From: Hymenobacter sp. CRA2
Lineage (GTDB): Bacteria > Bacteroidota > Bacteroidia > Cytophagales > Hymenobacteraceae
Reading direction: 5' to 3'
Length of the DNA: 64,000 nucleotides
Assembly (NCBI RefSeq): GCF_002007105.1
Contig: NZ_MVBC01000013.1
Coordinates: forward strand, 62,001-126,000
Shown: piece after piece, positions 13,063-31,281 of the stretch
How positions within the stretch are numbered: position 1 is the stretch's first letter
Layout: every line of letters starts with the position of its first letter
The notes under the pieces: model-generated
What the model was told of the DNA's origin: nothing
The model's input: only the letters and a program-made list of their open reading frames with translations
The model's database searches: none
Position numbers and translations under genes: made by a program

Positions 13063-13119
13063 TTTGCTGCCTGGCGCTGTAGCGTGGGTGAGCGGGTAAA
13101 AATCCGGTGTAGCCACTTT

Positions 13120-13175
13120 GCCATCAAAAAGCCCGCAGTTACCGAGGAGTCGGTAGCTGCGGGCTTTTTGATGGC
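13120..13175. terminator. Bidirectional terminator between convergent genes
   Basis: A 26-base-pair stem (13120-13145 with 13150-13175, one G-U type mismatch) closed by a GGAG loop. It carries AAAAA on the left arm and TTTTT on the right, so it can terminate transcription of both the protease gene and the facing beta-propeller gene. Confidence 0.8.
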
Positions 13176-13222
13176 AGGGCGTGGTATACTGGCGGGCTTG
13201 GGTGGCCGGCTCTTGGCGTGAT

Positions 13223-14665
13223 TTAGTAAATATCAGCCGTCATGCGCGCTGGGAACATGGCCCGGCCGATAAAAACCTGGGGCGTGACTTCGTCGACGGA
13301 GTTTGCGCCAAAGCTCGTGGCGGCGCCTACCGTACCGCCGACAAACAAATCACCTGATGGACTGGGCTTGATGGAGTTGGCTTCGTCGGTGGCGGTGCTG
13401 CCAGCCGAGAGGAAGTCCAGCCACCTGCCGCTCCTGGTCAGCCGCGCCACGAAAACGTCGGTGCTGCCTTTGCTGGCCAGGCTGATGCTGCCGTACTGGG
13501 CGCCCCGGCTGAAGTGCCCGGAAATATAGATGCTGCCGCCCGCCCCCAGACAGATGCCGGTGCCTTCTTCCAGGGCGCTGCCGCTCAGGGTGTATACCCA
13601 GTCCCAGCGCCCGGTTTTGTTGAGCCGCGCCACGTAGGCATCGGAGCCGCCGCGGCTTACCAACTCGTTGGTCCCCAGTGAGGCCCGTCCGGAAAAGGAG
13701 CCGGTCACGAACACATTGCCATCGGCCCCGACGGCAACAGCGTGGGCGTAGTCGGTGCTGGCGCCGCCGCCGGCGGTAGCCCACTGCCATTGCCCGGCGG
13801 CCGTGGTTTTGGCCACGAAAGCGTCGTGCGTGCCGGCGCTGGTCAGCGTGGTGCTGCCAAAGCGCGTGCCCCCGCCAAAGTAGCCGGCGGCGTACACGCT
13901 TCCTGCCTCATCCACGGCCAGCCCCTGAATTACGGTCTGGTCGTCGCCGTTGGTCTGGCTGGCCCAGGCCCATTCGCCCTGCGGAGTGAGTTTGGCAATA
14001 AAGGCATCGGACGCGGCCTGGCTCTGCAGCGTGGTTGTGCCGAAGCTGGCAGTGCCGCGGAAGCGCCCGGCCACGTAGATGTTGTGGTGCGCGTCCATGG
14101 CCAGGTCCAGTATCTGGTCCTGCTCCTCTCCGCCGGCCGTGGTCACCGACTGCCACTGGCCGCTGGGCGACAGCACGCCCACGAACATATCGAGGCTGCC
14201 CTGGCTGCTGCGGGTGAGGGCGCCAAACCGGGCTGTGGCGGCAAAGGAACCGGTTACGATGACGTTGCCCTGCGGATCGACTTCGATTCCGCTGGCTATA
14301 TCGGCCCCGTCGCCGCCGGCCGACACGGCCCATTGCCACTGGCCATCGGCCGATACTTTGGCCACGAATACGTCGCTGCTGCCGGTGCTTTTCAGCTCAA
14401 ATGCCCCAAACCGTACCTGCCGGCTGAAACGGCCTGCGACGTAGCCGTTGCCGGCCGCGTCGGCGGCCACTTTTTGCACCATGGCCGCTCCGCTTTCGGA
14501 AGAATGGGCAACCCAGCGCCAATCCGGGGTCTGGCCGTGGGTGGGCTGATAAGCTGCGAGCAGAACCGCAAGGGCCGAGGCTGCTTTAAGCTGACGTAGT
14601 GCCCTGACACCTATCCACGTGGCCGGACGAAACGCAGCAGCGCTGGAAAGGGTAGATAAGAACAT
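13223..14665 (-). CDS. Secreted beta-propeller (SBBP-repeat) protein
   Basis: A 480-residue protein with an N-terminal signal region (LKAASALAVLLAAYQPTHGQ, cleavage near residue 45). It then has about eight imperfect repeats of about 50 residues. Each carries V-D-x-x-G-N-(V/I)-Y-V-(A/T)-G-x-F, then FG...L.S.G..D.FVAKL and G.W.WA. This is the SBBP/beta-propeller repeat pattern, for example GNVIVTGSFAATARFG and GSIYISGHFSRGAQYG. The C-terminus (FPARMTADIY) is not a type IX sorting domain, so retention in the periplasm or another route is expected. Function is unknown; such proteins are often surface or carbohydrate-associated. It faces the S8 protease across the shared terminator. Confidence 0.85.
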   Translation of the reverse strand: MFLSTLSSAAAFRPATWIGVRALRQLKAASALAVLLAAYQPTHGQTPDWRWVAHSSESGAAMVQKVAADAAGNGYVAGRFSRQVRFGAFELKSTGSSDVFVAKVSADGQWQWAVSAGGDGADIASGIEVDPQGNVIVTGSFAATARFGALTRSSQGSLDMFVGVLSPSGQWQSVTTAGGEEQDQILDLAMDAHHNIYVAGRFRGTASFGTTTLQSQAASDAFIAKLTPQGEWAWASQTNGDDQTVIQGLAVDEAGSVYAAGYFGGGTRFGSTTLTSAGTHDAFVAKTTAAGQWQWATAGGGASTDYAHAVAVGADGNVFVTGSFSGRASLGTNELVSRGGSDAYVARLNKTGRWDWVYTLSGSALEEGTGICLGAGGSIYISGHFSRGAQYGSISLASKGSTDVFVARLTRSGRWLDFLSAGSTATDEANSIKPSPSGDLFVGGTVGAATSFGANSVDEVTPQVFIGRAMFPARMTADIY

Positions 14666-14811
14666 AAGAACACAGAATGGGGTGGAAAGAAGGAACGAGG
14701 AGCCTGTTCGGGATTAGGCTCCGGTTTCTACCTGCCAATGCGGGACCAATCCTTGCCAGGAACTCAGCACCCTGATTGCTAGGCGCATACCTATTACGGC
14801 GCTAGCGCACG

Positions 14812-14847
14812 TTATCCAGCAACTGGATAAATCATCCAGCGAATAGA
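14812..14847. promoter_or_regulatory. Putative activator-binding sites, distal pair
   Basis: TTATCCAGCAACTGGATAA at 14812-14830 is a perfect 8+3+8 palindrome. A second, one-mismatch version TCCAGCGAATAGA starts 20 bases further on (14835), on the same face of the helix. The shared core is TCCA-N5-TGGA, also found at 15054 and 23407. I infer enhancer sites for the NtrC-type activator encoded at 31282. Confidence 0.55.
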
Positions 14848-15053
14848 CCCAGCAATTACCGTGGCAGACGCCGCTTCGCACCGGCTGGCCCCTGCCACCT
14901 CCGCCAAAGGTTAGGCTGCTTTTACCCGTTGCAACAGGCTAGTACAACTTCCGTGGGCTTCCCCCGCAACGCCCCTTCGTGCCACCGCCGGACGGTAACC
15001 GCGCGGCCAGTTACTGCAATTAACCCATGGCCTTGCAAGCGGCCAGGTTCCTA

Positions 15054-15085
15054 TCCAGCATTTGGACCAAAGTCCAGAATGCAGA
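15054..15085. promoter_or_regulatory. Putative activator-binding sites, proximal pair
   Basis: TCCAGCATTTGGA at 15054-15066 matches the TCCA-N5-TGGA core exactly. A degenerate copy TCCAGAATGCAGA follows at 15073, 19 bases later. The pair sits about 90-125 bases before the predicted start of transcription, the usual place for enhancers of sigma54 activators. Confidence 0.55.
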
Positions 15086-15148
15086 GCAACAGATTTGTGG
15101 GCCATGAAATAACCAACTGATAATAAGACATATAAATAAAAAAGTCAC

Positions 15149-15165
15149 TTTGGTATGCTCCTGGC
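15149..15165 (+). promoter_or_regulatory. Candidate sigma54 (-24/-12) promoter of the export operon
   Basis: TTTGGTATGCTCCTGGC contains the invariant GG (15152-15153) and GC (15164-15165) separated by exactly 10 bases, the hallmark of RpoN promoters. The -12 element is TGGC rather than the common TTGC. Transcription would begin near 15177, 13 bases before the receiver gene. No TAnnTTTG housekeeping box was seen in this position. Confidence 0.5.
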
Positions 15166-15189
15166 CTAAGGCGGGCCAAACCGATTCTT

Positions 15190-15627
15190 ATGCCAATGGA
15201 GCAACCTAAAATCTTTCTGGTAGACGACGACCCGTTCTGCCTTAAGCTGATGGAGCACACCCTCAAGAGCAACGGCTTGCAGCGGGTACACACATTTGAA
15301 AACGGCGGGGCGTGCCTCAACGCGCTGACCGACGAGCCCGACATCGTGTTCCTGGACCAGGTGATGGACAGCGTATCGGGCACCGACACGCTCAAGGCAA
15401 TTAAGCGCTTCAACCCCGACATCTACGTGGTGTTCGTGAGCGGGCAGCAGCAGGTGGAAGTGGCCGTCGAGTCGCTCAAATTCGGCGCCTTCGACTACAT
15501 CGTCAAAGACGAGCACATGACCAGCAAGCTCAGCGCAGTACTGGAAAAAATCATGCTCATGCGCACGCTGCTGGCCCGCAAGCAGACCAACCGCTCTTCC
15601 CGGCTTTTCTCCTTCTTCAACTTCTAA
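15190..15627 (+). CDS. Stand-alone receiver-domain response regulator
   Basis: A 145-residue protein that is a single receiver domain. Its acidic pair lies in FLVDDDPFC, the phospho-acceptor is Asp56 in IVFLDQVMD, the switch Ser lies in FVSGQQ, and Lys in DYIVKDEH. The last 25 residues are a basic tail (TLLARKQTNRSSRLFSFFNF) without a DNA-binding domain. Its DY(I/L)VKDE ending and overall wording resemble the receiver of the NtrC-type regulator at 31282, suggesting duplication. It is the first gene of the exopolysaccharide locus. Inferred role: a phosphate sink, or a protein-protein switch acting on polysaccharide assembly, driven by the hybrid kinase at 32640. Confidence 0.9.
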   Translation: MPMEQPKIFLVDDDPFCLKLMEHTLKSNGLQRVHTFENGGACLNALTDEPDIVFLDQVMDSVSGTDTLKAIKRFNPDIYVVFVSGQQQVEVAVESLKFGAFDYIVKDEHMTSKLSAVLEKIMLMRTLLARKQTNRSSRLFSFFNF

Positions 15628-15633
15628 CCACGC

Positions 15634-15657
15634 GCGCCGTCCGACGCGGACGGGCGC
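15634..15657 (+). terminator. Hairpin between receiver and export genes
   Basis: A GC-rich stem of about 10 pairs with one bulged base (GCGCCGTCCG, loop ACG, CGGACGGGCGC) lies in the 53-base gap. There is no T-tract, so it may attenuate transcription or protect the receiver mRNA rather than fully terminate it. Confidence 0.35.
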
Positions 15658-15680
15658 CAGACACATCCTTTAAAAGTACC

Positions 15681-16418
15681 ATGAAACAACTCCTACAAAC
15701 GGGGTGCCTGTTGCTGCTGTGCCTGCTGACCAGCTGCACGCAGAACCTCTTTCAATCAGCAAGCAAAACCGAGTACAAAAAGCTCACGCTCGACCCCGAG
15801 TACCAGTACCAGATCCGCAAAGACGACAAGCTGAGCGTGAGCGTGTGGGACCACGAGGAACTGAGCGTGGGCTCCATCTACAGCATTTACAACTCCAACG
15901 AGGTATATGGCAAGTGGCTGCTCGTCGATGCCCAGGGCAAGGTAGCGCTACCGAAGGTGGGCCCCTTCCAGGTGGAAGGCCTGACCGTGCCCGAAGCCGA
16001 AGCCAACCTCAAGCAGGTGCTGAGCCAGTGGGTCGTCAATCCGCAGGTCAACATCAAGGTGCTCAACAAGCAGGTGACCGTACTCGGCGAGGTAAACACG
16101 CCCGGCAACCTGCTGCTGGAAAAGGAGCGCAACACGCTGGTGGAAGTGCTCGGCCGCTCCGGCGACTTCAACGAGTACGCCGACAAAGAGCACGTGAAGG
16201 TGCTCCGCTCCATCGGGGCCCAGGTGCACGAGCTGGAAGTTGACCTTACGCGGGCCGACAATCTGGACCTCACCAACATCGTGGTGCTGCCCAGCGACGT
16301 GGTATTCGTGCCCGCCCGCAACGGCAAGCAATTCAACAAAAAGTCTGGCTCCACGCTGGCCGTGGCGTCGAGCATTACCGCCTTCATCGTTCTCACCCGC
16401 CTGATTTTCTCCCTATGA
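15681..16418 (+). CDS. Wza/OtsA-type polysaccharide export lipoprotein
   Basis: A 245-residue outer-membrane polysaccharide export protein. It has a signal peptide with lipobox LLTSC (Cys19). The polysaccharide-export domain (about 40-135) has YQIRKDDKLSVSVWDHEELS and VDAQGKVALPKVGPFQVEGL. An SLBB domain follows (about 140-220), with VTVLGEVNTPGNLLLEKERN. The C-terminal hydrophobic helix TLAVASSITAFIVLTRLIF could be the membrane-spanning tail. It forms the outer channel with the copolymerase encoded next, whose start overlaps its stop by 4 bases (ATGA), so the two are translationally coupled. Confidence 0.93.
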   Translation: MKQLLQTGCLLLLCLLTSCTQNLFQSASKTEYKKLTLDPEYQYQIRKDDKLSVSVWDHEELSVGSIYSIYNSNEVYGKWLLVDAQGKVALPKVGPFQVEGLTVPEAEANLKQVLSQWVVNPQVNIKVLNKQVTVLGEVNTPGNLLLEKERNTLVEVLGRSGDFNEYADKEHVKVLRSIGAQVHELEVDLTRADNLDLTNIVVLPSDVVFVPARNGKQFNKKSGSTLAVASSITAFIVLTRLIFSL

Positions 16419-18529
16419 GCGAGCTGAACCAAACCCTGCGCCTGGTGCGCCCGCTCTGGCGCGGCTTGCCCGTTATTCTGCTCTGCACGGCCCTGGCCGT
16501 GGTGGGCGCCTACCAGTACCTGCGCTACGCCACGCCGCAGTACGAAAGCACGGCCAAAATCAAGCTGGCCGAAACCAACGAAAGCGCCATCAGCACCAAC
16601 CTGGTAAAGACTACGGACGTTTTCGCCCAGAACAACAAGATCGGGGCCGAGGTAGAGCTGCTCAAGTCGCGGCTGCTGCTGGACAAGGCCCTGCAAACCC
16701 TGCGCTTCGAGCTGAGCACCTACCGGGTGGGCGACATCCGCAAGACCGAGCTCTACAAGCAGAGCCCCTTCGCCGTCGAGCTGAAGCTGAGCAACCCGCG
16801 CTGGCAGGACCAAGCATTCAAGCTCGACATCATCTCCGACGACGAGCTGACGCTGACCGCGCCCTCGGGCGAAACCAAGCAGGGCCGCTTCGGGCAGGTG
16901 CTGCTCTTTAGCGGGGCGGAAGTGACCATTGCCAAAAACCGGACGCTGCTGGCCGAAAAGCCCGACCTGGCCCTGGCCGATACCTACGAGTTTGTGCGCC
17001 ACTCGCACGACCGGCTCCTGCAGGACGTGCTCGACCGCCTCGACATCACCAGCGTCGACAAGGACGTGGCCGTAATCCGGGTGAGCTTCCGCAGCCCGGT
17101 GCCCGACAAGGCCGCCGACCTGGTGAATGCCCTGACCCAGGTGTACATGCAGGATTACCTGGAAAACAAATACAAGGTGGCCAACACCTCGGTGGACTTC
17201 ATCGACCAGCGCCTGCAGGCGGTGGGCCAGACCCTGGCCCAGTCGGAAAACTCCATCGAAGGCTACCGCGACCAGAAGCGCATCGTGAACATCGGCCAGG
17301 AAACCGACACGGAGCTGCACAAGATTGCCGAGCTGAAGATGCAGCGCGCCAACCTGCGCATGAGCCTGGCCGCGGCCACCAAGCTGTACCAGTACATGAC
17401 CTCGGGCGAGCAGAACGTGCTGGAGCTGGCCCCCAACTTCGAGGCCTTCAACGACCTGCTCTCCAACGAAATCGTGAAGAAGATGAAGGATCTGCAGGCC
17501 GATAAGCGCGACCTGCTGCTGCGCTTCAAGCCCGAAGACGAGAAAGTGGTGGCCATCGACCAGAAGCTGGCCGACCTGAACAGCTACCTCACCGAGAGCA
17601 TCAAGAACACCCGCAACGCGCTGCAGGTGAAGTACGCCGAAATTGACCAGGCCATTCAGCAGTCGGAAAAGGCCTTCGTGGGCCTGCCCACCCGCGAGAA
17701 AAACCTGGCCATTCTGGAGCGCAACTTCCAGCTGAACGAGAAGCTCTACACCATGCTGCACGAGAAGAAAACGGAGGCCGAAATTGCCAAGGCCGCCCCG
17801 ACTTCTTACCACCGCATCATTTCCGAGGGCGTACCGGCCACCGAGCCCATCGCGCCGAACCACCTGCTGGTGCTGCTGGTATCGGGCTTCCTGGGCCTGG
17901 TAGCGGGCACGGCGCTGGTGTACCTGTTCTCGGCCGCCCGCGCTACCCCGAACGATACCTTGCAGATTCAGAAGGAGTCGCGCATTCCGGTGGCCGTGAG
18001 CATTCCGTTTCTGCCCGCTGGGGCCCAGCGCGTGGCCTACTTCCGCCAGCTGGCTACCCGCCTGGAGCTGAAAGGCCTGCTGAACCAGGGGCAGAAAGTG
18101 GTGGTAAGCTCTTTCGAGGAGCAGGAAGGCTCCGGTTTCTTCTTTGAGAACCTGACCTCCACGCTGAACGCGCAGGGCAAGAAGCTGCGCGGCATCCACA
18201 TCACCGACCCGCAGACGCTGAACCCGGCGGCCCTGGACTCGGAGCTGATGCTGGTGCGTAACCTGCCCCTGAACGAGGACAGCCACGCCTTGGCCGTGAT
18301 GGCCGGCGCCGACGTGAACCTGGTGCTGCTCGACGGCTGCACTACCCCGCTGGCTCGCATCAAGCAGCTGGAAGAACTGGTGGAGGAGTACAAGCTGCCG
18401 AACGTGCACTTCTGCCTGAACCGCGAAGGCTACCGCCCGGGCTTGTTCCGCCGCTTTGGGAAGCGCCCGGCCAAACAGGCCAGCTGGAAGTTTGGCGAAG
18501 CCCGTGCTGGCGCCCACGCTACCGCGTAA
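16415..18529 (+). CDS. Wzc/GumC-type polysaccharide copolymerase with degenerate kinase domain
   Basis: A 704-residue inner-membrane protein. The Wzz domain lies at the N-terminus, with a first membrane helix at about 17-35 (GLPVILLCTALAVVGAYQYL). A long periplasmic coiled-coil region (about 230-460) follows. A second helix is at about 485-505 (LLVLLVSGFLGLVAGTALVYLF). A cytoplasmic domain follows that corresponds to a BY-kinase. At the Walker A position (about 565-575) it reads SSFEEQEGSGF instead of the G-x-GKS/T loop. At Walker B it reads LVLLDGCTTPL. There is no terminal Tyr cluster. It therefore probably controls chain length and export without phosphorylating itself. It overlaps the export gene before it and the flippase gene after it. 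Confidence 0.9.
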   Translation: MSELNQTLRLVRPLWRGLPVILLCTALAVVGAYQYLRYATPQYESTAKIKLAETNESAISTNLVKTTDVFAQNNKIGAEVELLKSRLLLDKALQTLRFELSTYRVGDIRKTELYKQSPFAVELKLSNPRWQDQAFKLDIISDDELTLTAPSGETKQGRFGQVLLFSGAEVTIAKNRTLLAEKPDLALADTYEFVRHSHDRLLQDVLDRLDITSVDKDVAVIRVSFRSPVPDKAADLVNALTQVYMQDYLENKYKVANTSVDFIDQRLQAVGQTLAQSENSIEGYRDQKRIVNIGQETDTELHKIAELKMQRANLRMSLAAATKLYQYMTSGEQNVLELAPNFEAFNDLLSNEIVKKMKDLQADKRDLLLRFKPEDEKVVAIDQKLADLNSYLTESIKNTRNALQVKYAEIDQAIQQSEKAFVGLPTREKNLAILERNFQLNEKLYTMLHEKKTEAEIAKAAPTSYHRIISEGVPATEPIAPNHLLVLLVSGFLGLVAGTALVYLFSAARATPNDTLQIQKESRIPVAVSIPFLPAGAQRVAYFRQLATRLELKGLLNQGQKVVVSSFEEQEGSGFFFENLTSTLNAQGKKLRGIHITDPQTLNPAALDSELMLVRNLPLNEDSHALAVMAGADVNLVLLDGCTTPLARIKQLEELVEEYKLPNVHFCLNREGYRPGLFRRFGKRPAKQASWKFGEARAGAHATA

Positions 18530-19787
18530 GCTTGCCGCCCTGCCGGCCCGCTACTGGGTAGTAGCGGGCCAGGCAGTGGTCAGCGCCACGTCCTTTCTCA
18601 CCAATGTCTTCCTGGCCCGGCTCTGCGGCCTGACGGTGTTTGGCGAGTACAGTGCCTGGCAGATGGTGCTGCTGCTGGCCCTGGCGGTGCAGGGCGCGCT
18701 CATCTCGCAGCCCATGCAGATCGTGCACGGGCAGACGGCGGCCGCCCGGCGCCCGGCCTACCGGCAGGCGCTGCTGACCATGCAGCTGGTCTTCAGCTTG
18801 GTAGCTGCACTAGCCGTGGCCGGCGTCAGCCTGGCGGTGCCGGTCGCCACGGCGGCGCTACCGGCCTTTCTGGTGTGCCTGGTAGCTACCTGTGGGCAGG
18901 ATACCGCCCGCAAGCTGCTGCTGGCCGAGGGCCAGGTGCAGGTAGCGCTGCTAAGCGACGTGCTATCGGGCGCGGGGCAGCTGCTGGTGCTGCTGTACTG
19001 GGCCGTGGGCCGCGTGGCCGTGCCGCTGCCGGCCGTGCTCTGGGCCGTGGGGCTGACCACCGTGCCGGCCCTGCTGCTTTCGGCCGCTGCGCTGCGCTGG
19101 CGGCCGGGCTTCGCAGCCGGGGCCCTGCGCGAATTCGCGGGGGCGCACGGCCGGCAGGCCCGCTGGCTGCTGCCCACTGTGCTGCTGCAGTGGACCTCTG
19201 CCAACGCCTTGCTGGCTTTTGCCGGCTGGGCCGGCAGCGCGGCCACGCTCGGCATCCTGCGCCTGGCCCAGACGCTGATGGGCATCTTCAACGTGGGCCT
19301 GCAGGCGGCCGAAAACTACGTGCTGCCCAAGCTCAGCCAGAGCTTTGCGCGGCAGCCGCGGCTGTTCGAGCAGCAGCGCGCCCGCCTCACGCGCACCATG
19401 CTGCTGCTGGCGGCCGGGCCCATTGTGCTGCTCTTCGTGCTGGCCGGGCCCATCGTAGGTTGGCTGCAGGCCGATGCGCTGCAGTACAGCAACGTGCTGC
19501 GCTGGTGCTGCGTGCTGTACGTGGTGATTCTGCTGGTGTACCCGCTGCGCCTGACCGTGCGCCTGCTCGATGGCTCGCGGCCCTACTTCGTGGGCTACGT
19601 GCTCAGCATCGGCGTGTCGTTCGGGCTGGGGCGCTGGCTGATCGGGCAGTGGCAGGCCAGCGGCGTGGTGCTGGGCTGGATAGTGGCGCAGGTGGTGCTG
19701 GGCCTGTACTGGGGCCTGACCGTGTGGCGGGCCCAACGCAACAACTCAACTGAACCGGGCGGCCTGGCTGCCCTCGAAACGCAATGA
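18504..19787 (+). CDS. Wzx-type lipopolysaccharide/oligosaccharide flippase
   Basis: A membrane protein of 427 residues from GTG 18504, with about 12 hydrophobic helices and very few charged residues. The N-terminus VVAGQAVVSATSFLTNVFLARLCGLTVFGEYSAW is the MATE/Wzx-type opening found in polysaccharide flippases. It would move undecaprenyl-linked repeat units across the inner membrane. The open frame extends to a TTG at 18456. GTG 18504 is preferred because it limits the overlap with the copolymerase gene to 26 bases and gives a sensible short basic N-terminus (LPRKLAALPARYW). The next gene starts at the stop (ATGA overlap). Confidence 0.85.
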   Translation: MLAPTLPRKLAALPARYWVVAGQAVVSATSFLTNVFLARLCGLTVFGEYSAWQMVLLLALAVQGALISQPMQIVHGQTAAARRPAYRQALLTMQLVFSLVAALAVAGVSLAVPVATAALPAFLVCLVATCGQDTARKLLLAEGQVQVALLSDVLSGAGQLLVLLYWAVGRVAVPLPAVLWAVGLTTVPALLLSAAALRWRPGFAAGALREFAGAHGRQARWLLPTVLLQWTSANALLAFAGWAGSAATLGILRLAQTLMGIFNVGLQAAENYVLPKLSQSFARQPRLFEQQRARLTRTMLLLAAGPIVLLFVLAGPIVGWLQADALQYSNVLRWCCVLYVVILLVYPLRLTVRLLDGSRPYFVGYVLSIGVSFGLGRWLIGQWQASGVVLGWIVAQVVLGLYWGLTVWRAQRNNSTEPGGLAALETQ

Positions 19788-20905
19788 AAGTTATTCACCT
19801 CATCCTGGGCAAAGCCAACCCGGAGCGCATGAACGGCGTGAACAAGGTGGTGCACGCCCTGGCCACCGAGCAAAGCCGCGCCGGCTGGGACGTGGAGGTC
19901 TGGGGCATTACCCGGGACGTGGCCGAAAACTACCCGCCCCGGGAGTTTCGCACCCGCCTGTTTGCCGCGGGCCGCAACCCCTTCCGGCTGCCCGGGGCGC
20001 TGACGCACGCCCTGCACGACGCGGCCCGGCCCGCCGTGGTACACCTGCACGGCGGCTTCATCCCGACGTACTACGCGGCGGCCCGCCAGCTGCGCACCTT
20101 GGGCCTGCCCTACATCGTGACGCCCCACGGCAGCTACGGCCCCCAGGCCCTGCGCAAAAACCAGCTGGCCAAGCGCGTGTACCTGCGCCTCTGCGAGCAG
20201 TACGTGCTCCGGCACGCCGCCCGGGTGCATTGCCTGGGCCAGAGCGAGGTGCAGGGCCTGCAGGCCCTCAACCCCGCGCTGCCCACCAGCCTGCTGCCCT
20301 ACGGCTTTGAGCTGCCGGCCGCCGGCCCGCCGCCCGTGCCCACGCCGGGCCAGGTCTTCCGCGTGGGCTTCTGCGGGCGCCTCGACGAAAGCCACAAGGG
20401 CCTGAGTTGCCTCATTGCCGGCTTCGGCGAATTTGCCCGCCGGCAGCCCGGGGCCGAACTATGGATTATCGGCGACGGCCCCGACCGGGAGCGGGTGGAG
20501 CGCTGGGCCGCCGCCGCGCCCGCCGGCACCATCAAGGTGCTCGGCAGCCGCTTCGGCGAGGAGAAGTTCGACCTGCTGCGCCAGCTCGACGCCTTCGCGC
20601 ACACCTCCCACTACGAGGGCCTGCCCGTGTCCATCCTGGAAGCGGCTGCGCTGGGCATTCCGTGCGTGGTGACCGAGGCCACCAACATGGGCCCGTACAT
20701 CCGCCGCTTCGAGTGCGGGCAGGTGCTGGCCGAAGCCCAGCCCGGGCAGTTTGCCGCTGGCCTGCAGCGCTGCTTCGAGCAGTGGAAGAGCACGCCGCGT
20801 CCGCAGCTGCGCCAGCGGTGCCGCGACATGGTGAGCACGGCCTTCGCCTGGCCCACCCTGCTGCACGATTATCAGCGCATGTATCAGCAAGCCCTTTATG
20901 CGTAG
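19784..20905 (+). CDS. Family 4 glycosyltransferase
   Basis: A 373-residue GT-B fold enzyme, cytoplasmic or membrane-associated. The N-terminal acceptor domain (about 1-175) includes the Gly-free opening MKVIHLILGKANPERMNGVN, HLHGGFIPTYYAAARQL and PYIVTPHGSYGPQAL. The C-terminal Rossmann domain (about 185-370) has VGFCGRLDESHKG, ELWIIGDGPDRERVE, and the E-x7-E region HYEGLPVSILEAAALGIPCV. It would transfer an activated sugar to the growing lipid-linked repeat unit. The donor sugar cannot be read from sequence. It overlaps the flippase gene by 4 bases and the polymerase gene by 8. Confidence 0.92.
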   Translation: MKVIHLILGKANPERMNGVNKVVHALATEQSRAGWDVEVWGITRDVAENYPPREFRTRLFAAGRNPFRLPGALTHALHDAARPAVVHLHGGFIPTYYAAARQLRTLGLPYIVTPHGSYGPQALRKNQLAKRVYLRLCEQYVLRHAARVHCLGQSEVQGLQALNPALPTSLLPYGFELPAAGPPPVPTPGQVFRVGFCGRLDESHKGLSCLIAGFGEFARRQPGAELWIIGDGPDRERVERWAAAAPAGTIKVLGSRFGEEKFDLLRQLDAFAHTSHYEGLPVSILEAAALGIPCVVTEATNMGPYIRRFECGQVLAEAQPGQFAAGLQRCFEQWKSTPRPQLRQRCRDMVSTAFAWPTLLHDYQRMYQQALYA

Positions 20906-22193
20906 CACTTCTCCCCCCGACCACCGCCGGTTTCTGCGCCTGCTGCAGGTGCTGCTCACGCTGGTGCTGCTCGTCAAGCTGGCCGGCTTCTTCACCTGGA
21001 GCGAAGACGTGGGCTTCACGCGCGCCTTCAAAATGGTCAGCCGCCTCTCCATGACGGCCGCCGCCTACGGACTGTACCGGCTGATTCTGAGTCGCGGCGC
21101 CGTCGACTCGTTTCGCTGGCACAACAGCCTGGCCCCCATCCTCTACGCGGGCTACCTGCTGCTGGGCCTGGCCTCGCTGCTCTGGTCCACCGACGCGGCG
21201 TACTCGCTGCTGCAGCTGGTGATGGACGTGGAGAGCCTCGTCTTCGCGTTCTACTTCGTGAAGTGCTTTCTGCTGCTCGATGCGTTTTTCCCCACCAGCC
21301 GCATCAGCTTGCCCAACGTGGTCGGCAACGCCTCGTTTGGGCTGATTGCGGTATTCTTAGGGGGCATGCTGGTAGCGCCCGAGGTGTTTTACCGCCTCAC
21401 CCACAACGGCGAGGAGGCCCGCCTCGGCGGCTTCCTGATGAACCCCAACGAGCTGGGCATGCTCTGCGTGGTGGGCATCTCCTGCCTGAGCTTCAATTTC
21501 TACCGCGGCTACCACCCCCTGCTGACGGCCCTGAAAATCCTGCCCCTGTTCTATGCCCTGCTGCTCACCGGCTCGCGCTCCTCGCTCGTGGGCTTCCTGC
21601 TGATTGCGCTGCTGCACGTATTCCAGTCGGGCCACCGGCGGCTGCAGTGGGCTACCGCGGCCGCCGCGCTGCTGGCCGTACCGGTGGCCGTACGCACCCT
21701 GTTCATCAAGCAGGGCGGCGTGGAGGAAGTGCTGAGCCTGACCGGCCGCCTGCCCTTCTGGCACGCCCTGCTCACCGAAGGGCTGCCCAAGGAGCCTCTG
21801 CTGGGCTACGGTTTCATGCGCATTGCTTACGGCGACTATTTTCAGAGCACCCACACCTACGCCGCCCAGATGACGCACAACACGTTCATTCAGGTGCTGC
21901 TGAACCTGGGGCTGGTAGGTTTCGCGCTGGTGCTGGCTCAGCTCACGCTCACCCTGCGCGGCTTCGTACGCACCCGGCAGACCGAGCGGCGCCTGCTCTT
22001 CTTCGGCCTGCTCATCCCCATCCTGATCAACTCGTTCACCGAGTTTGGCATCTTCGGACAGACCAACTACGGCATTCTGTTCTACCAGCTGCTGATTTTC
22101 CTCATCAGCCTGCGCTACCACCCGCTGCTCTCCACGGCCGAAAAGCTGCTGCTCAAGCGCAAGCGCCCCGAGCTGCCGCTGCTGCCAGCCTGA
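20898..22193 (+). CDS. Wzy/O-antigen ligase-family polysaccharide polymerase
   Basis: A 431-residue integral membrane protein with about 10-12 helices. It has a large periplasmic loop in the second half containing GRLPFWHALLTEGLPKEPLLGYG and HTYAAQMTHNTFIQVLLNLG. These match the O-antigen ligase/Wzy-C motif (G-x-G...H(N)-x-(F/Y)-(L/I)). The cytoplasmic tail is basic (LLLKRKRPELPLL). In this operon setting, next to Wzx and Wza/Wzc homologues, polymerase is the natural role; ligases share the same fold. It begins 8 bases before the glycosyltransferase stop. Confidence 0.9.
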   Translation: MRSTSPPDHRRFLRLLQVLLTLVLLVKLAGFFTWSEDVGFTRAFKMVSRLSMTAAAYGLYRLILSRGAVDSFRWHNSLAPILYAGYLLLGLASLLWSTDAAYSLLQLVMDVESLVFAFYFVKCFLLLDAFFPTSRISLPNVVGNASFGLIAVFLGGMLVAPEVFYRLTHNGEEARLGGFLMNPNELGMLCVVGISCLSFNFYRGYHPLLTALKILPLFYALLLTGSRSSLVGFLLIALLHVFQSGHRRLQWATAAAALLAVPVAVRTLFIKQGGVEEVLSLTGRLPFWHALLTEGLPKEPLLGYGFMRIAYGDYFQSTHTYAAQMTHNTFIQVLLNLGLVGFALVLAQLTLTLRGFVRTRQTERRLLFFGLLIPILINSFTEFGIFGQTNYGILFYQLLIFLISLRYHPLLSTAEKLLLKRKRPELPLLPA

Positions 22194-22431
22194 TGCACCC
22201 TCTGCGGCCGGCACACCAGTTCAGTGCCTAGATGGACCGGGCCCGGCCAGCGCGCATTCCTCTTTCCTCACTGACGCACGCTTTCCGGGCCTCCGCCGGG
22301 GCAGCTGCCTGCGCCCTGTTGCCAGCCCGGCCGCCCGTTTCGCAGCCGCCCAAATACCGCCCCACTCTTTCCACAGCCTTCCCCACCGGTGCCTGCACCG
22401 CATTTTTTCCGGCTTTTCACATCCCATTTTT

Positions 22432-23004
22432 ATGAAGACACTACTAAACAACTCTCACCGCGTGGCCAGGCTGCTGGGCCTGCTGCCACCCCTGATGCTG
22501 ATGGGCCTGCTCCTCTTTGCGCGCGAAATCCGGTCGGCGCGCCGCCCGGTGCTGCCGGCCAGCACTACAGTGCTGCTGGTATGCCACGGCGAAAAAGCCC
22601 CAGTAGGCACCAGCGGTACCCCGCTGGCCCCAGCCGGGCAGGTCCGTGCCCAAGCCCTGGCCGATTTGCTGAGCCAGCGCGGAGTCGCAGCCGTGTTTAC
22701 GCCGCCGGTGCCCAGCTGCCGGGCCACCGTGGCGCCGCTGGCGCAGAGCATCCACCTGACGCCCCTGGTGTACAATGCCACGCAACCCAGCGCGGTAGCC
22801 AGCCGCATCACCCAGCAGTACGCCGGCAAAACCGTGGTCGTGGTCGGCGAGCCTGCTACCCTGCTGCCGCTGGTCGATGCGCTGGGCGTGCCCCGGCCCG
22901 TGAGCAGCGTAGCCGAAACCGACCACGACCTGCTGCTGGAAGTACGGCTACCGGCCGATGGCTTCCCGATGGTGCTGACGCGCCGCTACGGCGCCTCGGA
23001 GTAG
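22432..23004 (+). CDS. Membrane-anchored histidine-phosphatase-fold protein, probably inactive
   Basis: A 190-residue protein with one N-terminal membrane anchor (about 15-31, LLGLLPPLMLMGLLLFA). The domain at about 45-188 follows the histidine phosphatase (SixA-like) layout. The RHG-type motif reads LLVCHGEKAP, keeping His but replacing the catalytic Arg by Cys. The second catalytic segment, normally VVGH, reads VVVVGEPAT, replacing His by Glu. An expected G-x-x-L/Q-A-x-x-L helix is kept (GQVRAQALADLLSQRGV). Loss of two key residues argues for a non-catalytic binding role or a changed activity. It sits 238 bases after the polymerase gene on the same strand. That gap shows nothing recognisable. 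Confidence 0.8.
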   Translation: MKTLLNNSHRVARLLGLLPPLMLMGLLLFAREIRSARRPVLPASTTVLLVCHGEKAPVGTSGTPLAPAGQVRAQALADLLSQRGVAAVFTPPVPSCRATVAPLAQSIHLTPLVYNATQPSAVASRITQQYAGKTVVVVGEPATLLPLVDALGVPRPVSSVAETDHDLLLEVRLPADGFPMVLTRRYGASE

Positions 23005-23170
23005 CCTCGCTTCCACTCCCGTTGGCATGTGTCGCCCAAAGACGAAGCCCTATCTGAGCGAGCTAAAAAGCCCGTTCCGAGGCACCCGGCCGCATCTGGC
23101 TCAGCGAGCGGCGTAAACGGAAGCAGGTCGCAACTGACCTGCTTCCGTTTATAGCGGCTGGGTAAACACT

Positions 23171-23244
23171 TGTAGCGCGTGCTTCGGCCCGCGTCCGTCC
23201 GCACGATTACGTGCGGACGGACGCGGGCCGAAGCACGCGCTACA
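23171..23244. repeat. Perfect 74-base palindromic element
   Basis: Two 35-base arms (starting TGTAGCGCGTGCTTCGGCCC) are perfectly complementary around a 4-base ATTA loop. There is no T-tract. A shorter hairpin with a related GCGTCCG/CGGACGG core occurs at 62012-62043, so this probably belongs to a genomic repeat family. It lies in the 578-base gap between the phosphatase-like gene and the three-domain protein and could also separate the two transcription units. Confidence 0.85.
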
Positions 23245-23406
23245 CCATTTGCGGACAGCTGTGGAAAGTAGCATTCAGGTCATGCAGACTGGTCTTTGAG
23301 CGGCGGGGAGCTATTGCCTAAGTAACACTCCGGCTCGACCGGTAGCCCGCCCGCGCCGCCGTTTGGGTAGCGCGGGCCGGGGTATTTTTTCGCTGTCCAA
23401 CACCAA

Positions 23407-23491
23407 TCCAAGCGCTGGATCAGGCTGTCCGAGCCCCCCCCAGCACTTGGACTAGGGCTCCAAACCCGGGAGTGATAGTCCAGCTCATAGA
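23407..23491. promoter_or_regulatory. Putative activator-binding sites, three copies
   Basis: TCCAAGCGCTGGA (23407-23419) is an exact TCCA-N5-TGGA site. CCCAGCACTTGGA (23439) and TCCAGCTCATAGA (23479) each have one mismatch. Spacings are 32 and 40 bases, near whole helical turns. They lie about 90-175 bases before the predicted start of transcription at 23582, as expected of sigma54 enhancers, and match the sites before 15190. Confidence 0.55.
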
Positions 23492-23555
23492 CTGGCAGGA
23501 CGAATCATTAAAATATACTCATTGATTACCAGATCGTTATCTGCAAAATAATTTC

Positions 23556-23570
23556 TGGCCCTGCCTTGGC
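23556..23570 (+). promoter_or_regulatory. Candidate sigma54 (-24/-12) promoter
   Basis: TGGCCCTGCCTTGGC has GG (23557-23558) and GC (23569-23570) exactly 10 bases apart, the RpoN spacing, with -24 element TGGCC and -12 element TTGGC. Transcription would start near 23582, leaving almost no leader before ATG 23583. This suggests either a near-leaderless mRNA or a start at the in-frame ATG 23634. Confidence 0.5.
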
Positions 23571-23582
23571 ATCAGGGCCGGC

Positions 23583-26036
23583 ATGCACACAACTACCCTA
23601 TCCGATGATGATCAGCAACTGCTGACCAGCCTGATGGCCAAGCTGGGCTATGCGGCGGTTAGCCAGGGCGGCATCCAGCTGCGCGGCTTACGCAACCCCG
23701 GCGGCAGCCTGCGCTGGGTGTGGCCGGCCCGGCTGCGCCAGCCGCTCTTCCTGGAGTTCTATAATGCCTCGTCGCCCAAGGCCCGGCTGTTCTGCGCTCT
23801 GGTGCGGCTGGTGTTTGCCTGCGGGCTCACGCGCTGGCTGTTTCCGGTGTTGCCTGGCCGTTTCGCCAGCACTGGCACGCGCAGCTGGCCCGCCACCGAT
23901 TTTGCCCTGTTTACGGGCACGCCCGGCCCGTACCGCAAAGCCGTGTGCTGCTCCGTCGACAAGGCCGGCCGCCGTACGTTTGCCAAGCTGCCGCTCACCG
24001 CGGCGGCGGCCCATAAGGTGCAGGCCGAAGCCCGGGCGCTGCAGGCCCTGGCCAAGCGCCCGGCCGCTTCGTTCTGCGTGCCCGAAGTACTGGCCGCGCA
24101 ACCGGGCTTTCTGCTGCAGCGCGGCGTGAAGCCGGTCCGGGCCCGGCGCGCCAGCCAGCTCACCGGCCAGCACCTGGCTTACCTGCGCGAGCAGTTGCAG
24201 GCCGCCACCGCACATCCGCTCGCCGAAACCGAGTTCTGGCAGACGGTGCAGCGCCAGGTTGCGCGCCTGCAGGACCTGCCCGACACGCGCATTCCCTTCG
24301 GGCTGCGCACCAAGCTGCAGTTGCTGCTGGAGCGCATCGAGCCGGGGCAGGTTCTGCCGCTGGCCTTTGCCCACGGCGACTTCACGCCCTGGAACTGCTG
24401 GCTGGCTCCCGACCACCTCGCCCTCTACGACCTGGAGTTTGCCCTGCCCGCCGCCCCACTGCTCTACGACCTGTTTCATTTCCACGTGCAGCAGGGCCTG
24501 CTGGTGAGCCGGCAGCCCGCCGCACAGATCCGCAAGCAGCTCTGGCAGCAGGCCCGCACGCATTTCCCCGAGTTGACCGAGGAGTCGTTGCGCACGGCCC
24601 TGCAGCTGTACCTGCTGCACCAGGTATCCAGCTACGCGCTGGTGTACCACGCCCAGGAGCAGTGGCACACGCAGGTGCAGTGGCTGCTGGCCGGCTGGAA
24701 CGAGCTGCTGACCCTGGAGCTGGCCGCCCACGTGGAGCACCGCCAGCTTTGCCTCTACGACCTGCTCGACGGCCTGCCCGCCCGCGGCGGGGTGGTGCTC
24801 AAGCAGCGCGCCGCCAACGCTTATTACCCCGCCGCCACCTCCGACGTGGACCTGCTGCTCCCGCATGCGCAGGTGCAGGCCACGGCGGCCTTTCTGCGCC
24901 GCTTCCCGCTGGTGCGCTCGGCGGCCGTGCGCCGGCAGGCCCACATGGCGTCCGTCGACTGTTTTTTCCACGACGGCTCCTTCCTCTCGGTCGACCTGCT
25001 GCACCAGGTGCTGCGCAAGGCCGTGCAGATGGTCGACAGCGCCGAAATGCTGGCCGGGGCCCGCGTGGCTTCGGCCGGGGTACCGGTGCCAGCCCTCTGG
25101 CACGACTTCGAGTACACCTGGCTGTTTTATTGGCTCAACGGCAGCGACGTGCCGGCCCCGCACCGCCGGTTTTTCGAGCAGCGCAGCCCGCAGGAGCAGC
25201 GCATGCTGCTGGATTACCTGGTCGATAAGTACTGCCTGCACTTCGACAGCGTGGCCTCGGCCTGCACGTACCAGCCGCTGATAGCCGTGCAGCTGCGCCT
25301 GATGGTGCACGCCCAGGCCGGCAATGGCTACTGGCAGCTACAATGGCGCAACCTGCGCTACGCACTGCACACGGCAGCCTCGTTTTTCCGGCCCCACGGC
25401 TTCGTCATCACCTTCAGCGGCGTCGACGGGGCGGGCAAGTCCACGGTCATCGAGCACATCAAGGAGCGGCTGGAGAAGAAGTGGCGCAAGCGCGTGGTGG
25501 TCATCCGCCACCGGCCGTCGGTGCTGCCCATCCTCAGCGCTTGGAAGTACGGTAAGGCCGAAGCCGAGCAGCGTGCCGTGCAGACGCTGCCCCGCCAGGG
25601 CGAAAACCAGAAGCTCAGCTCCTCGCTCGTCCGCTTCGGGTATTACTACCTCGATTACCTGCTGGGCCAGGTCGTGGTGTGGCTTAAGTACACCCGCCGC
25701 GGCATCGTGGTGCTCTACGACCGGTACTACTTCGACTTCATCAACGACAGCCGGCGCAGCAACATTAGCCTGCCCGAGCCGCTCACGCGGGGCCTGTACG
25801 CCTTCGTCAACAAGCCCCGGCTGAACTTCTTCCTCTACGCCGACCCGGAGGAAATCCTGCGCCGCAAGCAGGAGCTGTCGGGCGACACCATCCGCGAGCT
25901 GACGCAGAAGTACCAGACGCTGTTCGGGCAGCTCGCGGGCAAGTACCGCCAGTCGCAGTACGTGCCCATCGAAAACCATAACCTGGACGACACGCTGGCG
26001 CTGATCGGGCGCTACATCCAAGCCGAAATTCAATGA
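23583..26036 (+). CDS. Three-domain protein: APH-like kinase, nucleotidyltransferase-like, thymidylate-kinase-like
   Basis: An 817-residue cytoplasmic protein. Residues about 110-400 follow the aminoglycoside-phosphotransferase/choline-kinase pattern, with the catalytic loop AHGDFTPWN (His264, Asp266) and the metal-binding acid in LALYDLEFA. Residues about 405-520 contain TSDVDLLLPHAQ (Asp421, Asp423) and ASVDCFFHDGSFLSVDLL, the acidic layout of nucleotidyltransferase-fold proteins. Residues about 600-815 form a P-loop kinase of thymidylate-kinase type with Walker A SGVDGAGKST (Lys619) and a DR-Y motif LYDRYYFDF. The substrate is not known; phosphorylation or activation of a sugar or lipid precursor is a guess from the exopolysaccharide context. 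Overlaps the acyltransferase start (ATGA). Confidence 0.85.
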   Translation: MHTTTLSDDDQQLLTSLMAKLGYAAVSQGGIQLRGLRNPGGSLRWVWPARLRQPLFLEFYNASSPKARLFCALVRLVFACGLTRWLFPVLPGRFASTGTRSWPATDFALFTGTPGPYRKAVCCSVDKAGRRTFAKLPLTAAAAHKVQAEARALQALAKRPAASFCVPEVLAAQPGFLLQRGVKPVRARRASQLTGQHLAYLREQLQAATAHPLAETEFWQTVQRQVARLQDLPDTRIPFGLRTKLQLLLERIEPGQVLPLAFAHGDFTPWNCWLAPDHLALYDLEFALPAAPLLYDLFHFHVQQGLLVSRQPAAQIRKQLWQQARTHFPELTEESLRTALQLYLLHQVSSYALVYHAQEQWHTQVQWLLAGWNELLTLELAAHVEHRQLCLYDLLDGLPARGGVVLKQRAANAYYPAATSDVDLLLPHAQVQATAAFLRRFPLVRSAAVRRQAHMASVDCFFHDGSFLSVDLLHQVLRKAVQMVDSAEMLAGARVASAGVPVPALWHDFEYTWLFYWLNGSDVPAPHRRFFEQRSPQEQRMLLDYLVDKYCLHFDSVASACTYQPLIAVQLRLMVHAQAGNGYWQLQWRNLRYALHTAASFFRPHGFVITFSGVDGAGKSTVIEHIKERLEKKWRKRVVVIRHRPSVLPILSAWKYGKAEAEQRAVQTLPRQGENQKLSSSLVRFGYYYLDYLLGQVVVWLKYTRRGIVVLYDRYYFDFINDSRRSNISLPEPLTRGLYAFVNKPRLNFFLYADPEEILRRKQELSGDTIRELTQKYQTLFGQLAGKYRQSQYVPIENHNLDDTLALIGRYIQAEIQ

Positions 26037-26755
26037 AACAACTGTTAGAAAGCCTCGTGCGCCGGCGCAACCCGCACTTCGCCATTCACCCGGCCGTATC
26101 GGTGGGCTGGCTGGCGGGCTTTGCCGGGCGCACGGCCGCGGCGCTGCTGCGCGGCCAGAAGCTGTGGCTGCGCGGCCGCCGCCCGCACGGGGCCCTGCTG
26201 GGCCGCGGCGTGCGCTTCGAGTACCTGAGCCGCATGCGCTTCGGGCGCTGGCTGAAGGCCGGCGACGGGGTGCGTTTCAGCGCCCTCTCCACCCGCGGCC
26301 TCTCCCTGGGCGACAACGTGAGCATCGGCGCCTTCAGCCAGGTGGTCGTGTCCACGTCGTTGCAGGAGCCGGGCGCCTTCATCCACATCGGCAACTCGGT
26401 GGGCATCGGCGAATTTGCCTACCTCGGCGGCGCCGGCGGCCTTTCCATCGACGACCATTGCATCATCGGCCAGTACTTCAGCTGCCATCCCGAAAACCAC
26501 GTGCACGCCGACATGGAGCGGCCCATTCGCCTGCAGGGCGTCACGCGCCGCGGCATTCACATCGGGGCCAACTGCTGGATCGGCAGCAAGGTCACGGTCC
26601 TCGACGGGGTGAGCATCGGTGAGGGCTGCGTGGTGGCCGCCGGGGCCATGGTGACGCGCCCGGTGCCCCCGCGCTGCGTGGTGGCTGGCGTGCCGGCCCG
26701 CATCATTTCCCTGCGCGAGCCCGCAGCCGTGCCGAACGAACCCGTATCCGCCTGA
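26033..26755 (+). CDS. Hexapeptide-repeat acyltransferase
   Basis: A 240-residue left-handed beta-helix protein. Hexapeptide-type repeats run from about 75 to 225, such as LGDNVSIGAFSQVVVS, IHIGNSVGIGEFAYLGG, IHIGANCWIGSKVTVLDGV and SIGEGCVVAAGAMVTRPV. The catalytic His expected in the CoA-dependent acetyltransferase group is probably in FSCHPENHVHAD. The end VVAGVPARIISLRE is the classic tail of WcaF/maltose-O-acetyltransferase-type enzymes. It would add acetyl or another acyl group to a sugar of the polysaccharide. It is coupled to its neighbours: 4 bases overlap before, 1 base after (TGATG). Confidence 0.9.
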   Translation: MKQLLESLVRRRNPHFAIHPAVSVGWLAGFAGRTAAALLRGQKLWLRGRRPHGALLGRGVRFEYLSRMRFGRWLKAGDGVRFSALSTRGLSLGDNVSIGAFSQVVVSTSLQEPGAFIHIGNSVGIGEFAYLGGAGGLSIDDHCIIGQYFSCHPENHVHADMERPIRLQGVTRRGIHIGANCWIGSKVTVLDGVSIGEGCVVAAGAMVTRPVPPRCVVAGVPARIISLREPAAVPNEPVSA

Positions 26756-29105: not shown

Positions 29106-29221
29106 CCGGTCCACACCTGCTACTGCTTTCCGGCGGCTGCCCGCCGCTTTCACGCTTACCCGTCGGCCAAGCACCGCCGGCCCTGCTCCCTTCCTGATTG
29201 ACTTCTACTCTTACCCCACGC

Positions 29222-30436: not shown

Positions 30437-30492
30437 GCAAGCCGCCGAGGAAGCCAGCTAGGGCACAACCACTTCTTATCGGCAGAAGCCAA

Positions 30493-30535
30493 GCGGGTAG
30501 CTTGGGAAGAGCAAATATCTTCCCAAGCTACCCGC
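30493..30535. repeat. Perfect 18-bp hairpin
   Basis: GCGGGTAGCTTGGGAAGA (30493-30510) pairs exactly with 30518-30535 around a GCAAATA loop, 56 bases after the DUF1972 glycosyltransferase stop. There is no T-tract. It probably marks the end of the biosynthetic transcript or is another interspersed palindrome. Confidence 0.7.
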
Positions 30536-30984
30536 GTTATGTGCCGTCCACGCATCGGGGCAGCTCTCGTGGGCTCCAGTTTGGGTATCACCCCAAGCAT
30601 GACCAAGTAATCTAGCTGGATAGTTTGCTTCCGCCCCCGAACCGGCCTGTGTAAGCACGCGGAACGCCCCGGCGGTGACTGGGCTGCCGTGCTTGTTGCT
30701 GGGCGCAAGATGCTTCGCCTCCGTGGATGTTGGCTGATGCAGGAAATTTGAAATATTTTCAGGAATGGCTTAACCAAAAGATATGAGGCACATGATACAC
30801 GTCATGGCTTTTTCAGCAAAAAAGTGCAATACGCATGCGCTTATATTGCGAATATTTTCAACCTGTTTCATTTTGGCAAAAAGCCTCCCATAAACGGAAA
30901 TACAGCACTAATTCAGTCTGTTTATCGAGAATAACCCAATAATATTTAGATACGTAGCTATACGTATGTGGAACAAATAAATCA

Positions 30985-30993
30985 TACTTTTGC
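30985..30993 (+). promoter_or_regulatory. Candidate Bacteroidota -7 promoter box
   Basis: TACTTTTGC matches TAnnTTTG exactly, inside an AT-rich stretch. It points toward the NtrC-type regulator, implying a leader of about 280 bases. No good -33 TTG lies at the right distance. Confidence 0.4.
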
Positions 30994-31281
30994 ACCCGCT
31001 TTGCCGCAGACATCCCTCCTGAGTCTCAGCCACTTTTTAGTCCTGTAGGAATCAGACAGCCGTGTCGTGGCCGGGCCCTGCCTACGCCGAAACCACTGCC
31101 CAATCTCTGCCCCGTGCTCCGTTGCCGTCAGGTACGCTGATGCATCGACGGACTTCGGTCTGCGGGCTCTTGCAGGACGTTGCGTCCATTCCCATCCGGC
31201 CGTCGTGCTTAGTTGGCTGTTTGCACAGCTACCGGGCACCGCATGCCTTCATTTTTGCCCCAGCGGCTCACCCCAGACGAG

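Follow-up and report, generated by a model that had tools for sequence, protein, structure and literature searches.

The 64,000-nt stretch of Hymenobacter sp. CRA2 DNA analysed here (contig NZ_MVBC01000013.1, positions 62,001 to 126,000; hereafter the window, in whose positions all coordinates are given unless stated otherwise) carries two exopolysaccharide (EPS) transcription units, a gene divergent from the first of them and, further downstream, genes for an NtrC-type response regulator and a hybrid histidine kinase. We found that paired TCCA-N5-TGGA palindromes and -24/-12 elements in a set geometry form three predicted promoters, which very probably belong to a dedicated sigma-54 regulon for exopolysaccharide kept across many Bacteroidota. 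A dedicated polysaccharide regulon had been proposed in a preliminary description of the same DNA and is supported by comparison with relatives: orthologous promoters keep the sites, rpoN is present as a single copy in the genome, and a homolog of the regulator, a candidate enhancer-binding protein (EBP), is encoded by all 26 genomes of one set and by 24 of 27 in another. In the circuit that we infer, the hybrid kinase (32640) would phosphorylate the NtrC-type regulator (31282), which would bind the palindromes, usually at least two of them on one helix face (~20 bp apart), with the last palindrome 62–64 nt before the -24/-12 element. A bending protein of the IHF/HU family at a TGATTATCAA-type middle element would bring the activator to RNA polymerase-sigma54, and the outcome would be activation, rather than repression, of EPS unit 1 (15190–22193), EPS unit 2 (23583–30436) and the divergent gene (13223–14665).

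Paired palindromes and -24/-12 elements form three predicted promoters

The only exact matches to TCCA-N5-TGGA in the window are those at 14815, 15054 and 23407, the three sites of the preliminary description. They are accompanied by one-mismatch copies at 14835, 23439, 23459 and 23479 and a two-mismatch copy at 15073; the copy at 23459 was absent from the earlier list, and the GG-N10-GC pairs reported at 15152–15165 and 23557–23570 are present. All three exact sites lie inside the gaps 14666–15189 and 23058–23582, the second of which is bordered by an open reading frame (ORF; 22389–23057) with no Pfam or NCBIfam family match. Shuffled versions of the window contained 0.50 exact sites on average, and three were reached in 1 of 100 shuffles. 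Since the whole genome (5.88 Mb) has 79 exact sites, 0.014 would be expected by arithmetic in the two gaps together (1,049 bp) against the three found, which bears out the earlier claim that their number exceeds chance. A composite scan for two palindromes 18–22 bp apart and a -24/-12 element 50–75 nt further on, using a -24/-12 matrix trained on relatives with the window excluded, returned exactly three matches in the window (P1, P2 and P3) and none in 2.18 Mb of the remaining genome, so the arrangement is not scattered at random there. With a control palindrome, the same scan returned none in the window and one in the 2.18 Mb. Inspection of all 79 exact sites in the genome identified six with a -24/-12-like match (>8 bits, at least 20 nt away and within 160 bp); three of these are the window promoters and the other three lie inside ORFs. 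The special feature is the combination of paired sites and a -24/-12 element, not the bare palindrome.

Palindrome pairs at the three promoters are 19–20 bp apart. P2, predicted to drive EPS unit 1 on the plus strand, has an exact palindrome at 15054–15066 and, 19 bp from it, a second one with two mismatches at 15073–15085; its -24/-12 element, TTTGGTATGCTCCTGGCC (15149–15166), follows the last palindrome by 63 nt, and the transcript start is expected by arithmetic at ~15177. Between the sites and the element, a weak copy of the middle element (CTGATAATAAG..., 15117–15138) can be read by eye. P3, predicted to drive EPS unit 2 on the same strand, has an exact palindrome at 23407–23419 and one-mismatch palindromes at 23439–23451, 23459–23471 and 23479–23491, the last of which aligns with the last site in 11 other Hymenobacter. 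An IHF-like middle element, TTGATTACCAGATCGTTA (23522–23539), stands between these sites and the -24/-12 element TCTGGCCCTGCCTTGGCA (23554–23571), which lies 62 nt after the last palindrome and whose spacing to the gene is kept within 1 nt in the same 11 Hymenobacter. The expected P3 transcript start, ~23582 by arithmetic, coincides with the ATG annotated for the 23583 gene; the transcript may therefore lack a leader, or translation may begin further downstream than annotated.

The predicted P1 reads on the minus strand into the divergent gene. Its -24/-12 element, ATTGGTCCCGCATTGGCA (14733–14750), scores 11.4–11.8 bits, and the exact palindrome at 14815–14827 and a one-mismatch palindrome 20 bp from it (14835–14847) are set so that the nearest site is 64 nt from the element. 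The preliminary description had assigned both palindrome groups to the EPS units. This assignment stands for the 15054 and 23407 groups but not for the 14815/14835 pair, which is predicted to serve P1 since it lies 64 nt from a minus-strand -24/-12 element reading into 13223–14665; it is because this pair belongs to the divergent gene that we count three promoters in the window rather than two. The pair could still be taken, as proposed earlier, for a distant enhancer of the EPS unit at 15190, given that the gap is common to both genes and that NtrC-type enhancers can act from a distance. We consider this very unlikely, since the pair shows towards its own minus-strand element the geometry of P2 and P3, but, read in the plus direction, would stand 300–320 nt away from the P2 element. 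The corresponding gap of Hymenobacter mucosus (locus L083) also speaks against it, as it holds both promoters, each with its own palindrome pair. On its minus strand are the element GTTGGTCCCGCATTGGCA (961–978 of that locus) and one-mismatch sites at 1044 and 1064; on its plus strand are the element TTTGGTATGCATGTGGTA (1426) and sites at 1330 (exact) and 1349 (one mismatch). By arithmetic, the nearest sites are 65 nt (minus) and 64 nt (plus) from these elements. The P1 element and layout are nearly identical in the two species, and a homolog of the divergent gene's product, 59% identical, is encoded on the minus strand at the start of the H. mucosus locus.

Two side observations concern the same kind of region. 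In H. mucosus, a second -24/-12-like match of 16.8 bits (1364–1381) lies 2 nt after the last P2 palindrome and precedes the P2 element by 62 nt. At three other loci (L079, L080 and L122), some 550 bp upstream of the kinase-fusion gene (the ortholog of 23583), a sigma-54-like promoter reads divergently on the minus strand and has a palindrome pair to itself.

Sites and promoter elements are conserved before orthologous units

The 23583 gene was found in none of seven congeneric genomes, in which the best Wza homologs were 29–33% identical, and wider relatives were therefore used for the conservation test. A search across 204 genomes of the family returned 14 further genomes with a full-length 23583 homolog, and the locus set comprised the best 80 of 114 relatives from a scan of GTDB genomes for such homologs. 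In these 80 loci TCCA-N5-TGGA occurred 124 times between ORFs, whereas the same half-sites at every alternative spacer length between 0 and 11, and 11 permuted half-site arrangements, gave 0–2 intergenic palindromes each. As the intergenic count relied on crude ORF calling and 66 further sites were counted as coding (11–30 at other spacers), some true sites are probably hidden among the latter. A plus-strand gene lies to the right of all 124 intergenic sites, which is partly a result of how the loci were oriented. The wider palindrome consensus in relatives is (T)TTCCA-AAWTW-TGGAA(A), and in 25 of 26 genomes TTCCA-N5-TGGAA outnumbered the reversed control.

The clusters usually begin with a response regulator, Wza, Wzc, a protein of unknown family, a glycosyltransferase and Wzy; a second block has the kinase fusion, an acyltransferase and glycosyltransferases, followed by a DUF1972 glycosyltransferase. 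Exact sites stood before the first genes of the three transcription units in 31 of 47, 48 of 80 and 35 of 71 cases, compared with 0–1 of 46–75 before inner genes, 4 of 34 before the EBP gene and 0 of 24 before the kinase gene; control palindromes were found 0–2 times before these genes, with the exception of CCAT-N5-ATGG, treated below. At least one exact site preceded an orthologous first gene or the EBP gene in 58 of the 80 loci, so that the poor conservation before orthologous operons named in the preliminary description as an adverse outcome was not what we found.

Expectation-maximisation on the 115 regions downstream of the last palindrome recovered, de novo, the motif TTTGGCAY-N4-TTTGGCA in 107 of them (>6 bits), at a median of 54 nt after the last site. 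Site-to-element distances in 104 aligned regions were 52–54 nt in 44, 71–73 nt in 19 and 62–64 nt in 12, and the longer ones may conceal an imperfect extra site. A strong -24/-12 score was reached by 51–59% of real upstream regions and 2–5% of reversed ones; in loci without TCCA, it was reached by 51% of 49 upstream regions and 2% of reversed ones. The de novo search also yielded a second element, TAAA-N3-YTGATTATCAA, between site and promoter in 95 of 115 regions (>6 bits). Of the 104 regions, 18 matched the IHF-type consensus (WATCARNNNNTTR) on one strand and 16 on the other, compared with 0.5 and 0.7 in mononucleotide shuffles. With a bending protein, presumably of this type, bound at the middle element, the promoters would have all three parts of the classic arrangement: enhancer, bend and -24/-12 element. 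Another de novo motif was dropped as probably conserved coding sequence, judged by eye from its position and sequence.

These elements bear on whether sigma-54 is involved at all. Palindromes of such size fit many regulators, and Bacteroidota sigma-A promoters (TAnnTTTG) are conceivable, so that the palindrome might be the operator of some unrelated regulator, whether repressor or activator, at promoters that use the housekeeping sigma factor. This explanation is extremely unlikely in our judgement: the -24/-12 element was recovered at a set spacing without prior assumption, real and reversed upstream regions differ in its score as given above, and the last sites lie 62–64 nt upstream of the element rather than overlapping it.

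Several observations nevertheless weigh against a sigma-54 EPS regulon. On its own, the 8-base pattern shows no enrichment in the CRA2 genome (79 sites, and 171 for the reversed control), only 3 of the 30 top window matches of a flank-weighted palindrome matrix fall in the two gaps, and the -24/-12 matrix alone is unspecific, with 33 window positions at 8.5 bits or above. The bare GG-N10-GC count in relatives was modestly enriched (58, compared with 20–45 at other spacings), too weak a signal, and was for that reason replaced by the de novo search. The control CCAT-N5-ATGG preceded three glycosyltransferase genes in 17 of 75, 5 of 60 and 5 of 71 cases, the 17 of 75 being at an inner gene, and in 22 of the 80 loci none of the genes tested was preceded by an exact TCCA site. 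Finally, the three promoters differ in the middle element, which stands out in P3, is weak in P2 and was not seen in P1.

A possible extension of the regulon beyond EPS was pursued in two Flavobacterium genomes, where the check covered 16 of 46 sites. Three were intergenic EPS sites; of the other 13, 12 fell inside ORFs of at least 203 residues and one had no good -24/-12 match. None of the sites covered speaks for the extension, and a wider regulon may still exist there.

The 31282 protein is the likely activator

The gene at 31282–32640 on the plus strand encodes a response regulator with a receiver domain, an AAA+ domain with GAFTGA and a C-terminal helix-turn-helix, confirming that the locus encodes an NtrC-type protein with this motif. 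The helix-turn-helix was judged by eye and is conserved in orthologs; the Fis-type domain PF02954 (HTH_8) scored 18.1 bits against a cut-off of 22. The protein also stayed below the cut-offs of the PrsR (TIGR02915; 376.9 against 502.6 bits) and NtrC (TIGR01818; 399.7 against 558.6 bits) families. Its gene adjoins that of a hybrid histidine kinase with PAS, HisKA, receiver and Hpt domains by Pfam (32640–36200, plus strand), the proposed input to the activator. The 31282 protein is the likely activator at the TCCA-N5-TGGA sites. Homologs scoring >300 bits were encoded inside 33 of the 80 fetched loci. The best homologs, found in the 26 of 26 and 24 of 27 genomes given above, were 49–79% identical, compared with ~34–44% for other full-length paralogs among the matches listed and up to 49% for domain-only matches. 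In one Flavobacterium metagenome-assembled genome, the EBP match begins 56 bp downstream of a palindrome.

The genome encodes nine strong sigma-54 activator domains. Several related genomes have a second close EBP copy of 48–58% identity, which leaves the cognate copy uncertain. The palindrome and the -24/-12 element could be real while the activator is another of the ~nine NtrC-type proteins. We regard this as improbable in view of the homologs inside 33 of the 80 loci and in 50 of 53 genomes, of a recognition-helix residue that follows the palindrome class (see below) and of the different helix in the four other activators of the own genome whose C-termini were compared. The 31282 protein remains our preferred candidate.

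The palindrome code differs between lineages

The preliminary description had read the palindromes as a control code shared by the two EPS units. Among relatives, the palindrome differs by lineage. Of 20 loci lacking TCCA, 10 (L087, L089, L118, L128, L134, L139, L145, L146, L148 and L149) have exact TCCC-N5-GGGA, which was found at 15 of 41 promoters; the next best half-site reached 4. TCCC was compared with all other half-sites here, as reversed sequences preserve palindromes and are unusable as a control. Two related loci, L147 and L149, have TCCG or mixed TCC(G/C) forms, and four (L086, L101, L117 and L131), including Labilibaculum and Ancylomarina, have a TTTC-N5-GAAA form that is exact in two promoters. 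The TCCG and TTTC forms are tentative alternatives, as each is represented by two exact promoters and one-mismatch copies, and, for TTTC, one-mismatch copies also occur in many TCCA loci.

We compared these classes with the residue that follows STIY in the recognition helix of the EBP. Of the 44 exact-TCCA loci whose helix could be read, 22 have N at this position, 20 have K, and one each has S and R; of the 10 such exact-TCCC loci, eight have R and one each has K and S. This two-class count omits 12 exact-TCCA loci without a readable helix, three one-mismatch TCCA loci, four without class and seven TTTC, TCCG or one-mismatch TCCC loci. The exceptions are L094, an exact-TCCA locus with R, in whose genome the second EBP copy has N; L087, with TCCC and S; and L149, with both TCCC and TCCG and the helix KTTIYK. 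On the tree of the kinase-fusion protein, helix residue and palindrome class each change four times. In a covariation test of four independent pairs, a mean of 2.5 agree, none disagree and 1.5 show no difference; this is not significant, which tempers the case for joint change, and with four pairs the test could not have reached significance. The covariation of helix and palindrome is thus a strong lead, not proof.

It stands at about even odds, in our view, that one orthologous activator kept its EPS promoters across Bacteroidota while TCCA, TCCC and perhaps TCC(G/C) and TTTC palindromes, alike in geometry, took one another's place at several operons simultaneously, the helix changing to match in each case. 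Under such rewriting, N or K after STIY would correspond to TCCA, R to TCCC and KTTIYK to TCCG, and the locus, if this is true, would be a natural record of a regulator and its operator set changing together. Since the same activator and promoters appear to occur in many lineages with different palindromes, they offer a comparative system for a joint specificity switch of a regulator and several operators.

Relation to known sigma-54 systems

Among the closest designs that we encountered is PrsR/PrsK of Proteobacteria (Haft 2006, PMC1569441), in which, according to that article, an NtrC-like regulator controls PEP-CTERM genes and lies near exopolysaccharide genes, and a 17-nt motif, sometimes repeated, is followed at a mean of 62.8 nt by a -24/-12 element. 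The Hymenobacter locus resembles it in having an NtrC-like regulator near EPS genes and a motif followed by a spaced -24/-12 element. It differs in that the palindrome is TTCCA-N5-TGGAA, the predicted targets are EPS operons and the 31282 protein falls below the PrsR cut-off; PrsR motif 1 is described there as ending in TTTACA and as found only in Proteobacteria, before PEP-CTERM genes. An RpoN-dependent PEP-CTERM gene is reported as confirmed in PMC9850573. Separately, an exosortase-like PF09721 match of 38.6 bits (cut-off 25.7) with one internal stop was seen on another contig (G000:C8:90816-91370, L374).

In Vibrio, SypG is reported to drive sigma-54-dependent syp promoters (PMC10162802), with TTCTCANNNTGMDWN as the SypG site and TTGCAWWWTGCAA as the LuxO site. 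SypG and LuxO are likewise enhancer-binding proteins, and the 13-bp palindromic LuxO sites have a similar geometry, whereas site sequence, phylum and gene cluster are different here. BerB and RpoN are described as controlling the Bep exopolysaccharide of Burkholderia via berA in a c-di-GMP-responsive manner (PMC5552954); this is again an enhancer-binding protein acting with RpoN for exopolysaccharide, but in Hymenobacter the EPS operons carry the predicted sites themselves. Within Bacteroidota, -24/-12 promoters have been experimentally mapped in Flavobacterium psychrophilum (PMC9723704), with chaperones, gliding, exported and other proteins among the targets named. The -24/-12 promoters are common to both cases; the selection of targets printed there, unlike the locus analysed here, includes no EPS operon and comes with no enhancer palindrome. 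A sigma-54 study that includes Bacteroidota (PMC12316311) names chaperones, gliding and other genes for the phylum; its main text does not contain the word exopolysaccharide and reports polysaccharide-export genes for Myxococcia. We found no description of this regulon among the PubMed Central matches listed, subscription journals and preprints being outside the scope of the search. By this measure, the arrangement is very probably an undescribed sigma-54 EPS regulon on the known design of PrsR/PrsK, SypG/LuxO and BerB. It supplies a specific control circuit, open to experiment, for a cluster of surface-polysaccharide genes common to many Bacteroidota.

Genes and other features of the locus

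The divergent gene read by P1 (13223–14665, minus strand) encodes a beta-propeller-repeat (SBBP) protein of 480 aa that is probably exported, as judged by eye. EPS unit 1, on the plus strand, opens with a single-domain response regulator (15190–15627), which may feed back on the phosphorelay; a lone receiver-domain protein opens this unit in many loci. It is followed by a Wza-like polysaccharide export protein (15681–16418), a Wzc-like chain-length determinant (16415–18529), a protein without Pfam or NCBIfam match (18456–19787), a glycosyltransferase (19784–20905) and a Wzy-like polymerase or ligase (20898–22193). From its position and the look of its conserved sequence, the 18456–19787 protein is perhaps a Wzx-like flippase.

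EPS unit 2, also on the plus strand, begins with a kinase-like fusion (23583–26036), after which come a hexapeptide acyltransferase and three glycosyltransferases, the last with DUF1972 (26033–30436). Pfam places a thymidylate-kinase-like domain at the C-terminal end of the fusion protein. Its predicted structure has a mean predicted local distance difference test score (pLDDT) of 87.8, and among PDB entries the model matches thymidylate kinases and macrolide phosphotransferases best; choline-kinase and aminoglycoside-kinase relatives rank lower. By elimination and from the motif HGDFTPWN...DWE in the alignment, which we take to be typical of the APH/choline-kinase type, the N-terminal half is predicted to be of that type; the likeness to resistance enzymes is one of fold only. 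Fusions of an APH/choline-kinase-like and a thymidylate-kinase-like part are present in many Bacteroidota EPS clusters.

Generic scans gave three sigma-70 matches (2.3 in shuffles) and 22 terminator matches (15.1 in shuffles), and an Rfam search of 13000–33000 gave no match. A perfect inverted repeat with 35-nt arms and a 4-nt loop (23171–23244) lies between the two EPS units, and a 24-base piece of it has one more match in the genome, with two mismatches. A perfect hairpin with 18-nt arms (30493–30535) follows EPS unit 2, ahead of the regulator gene.

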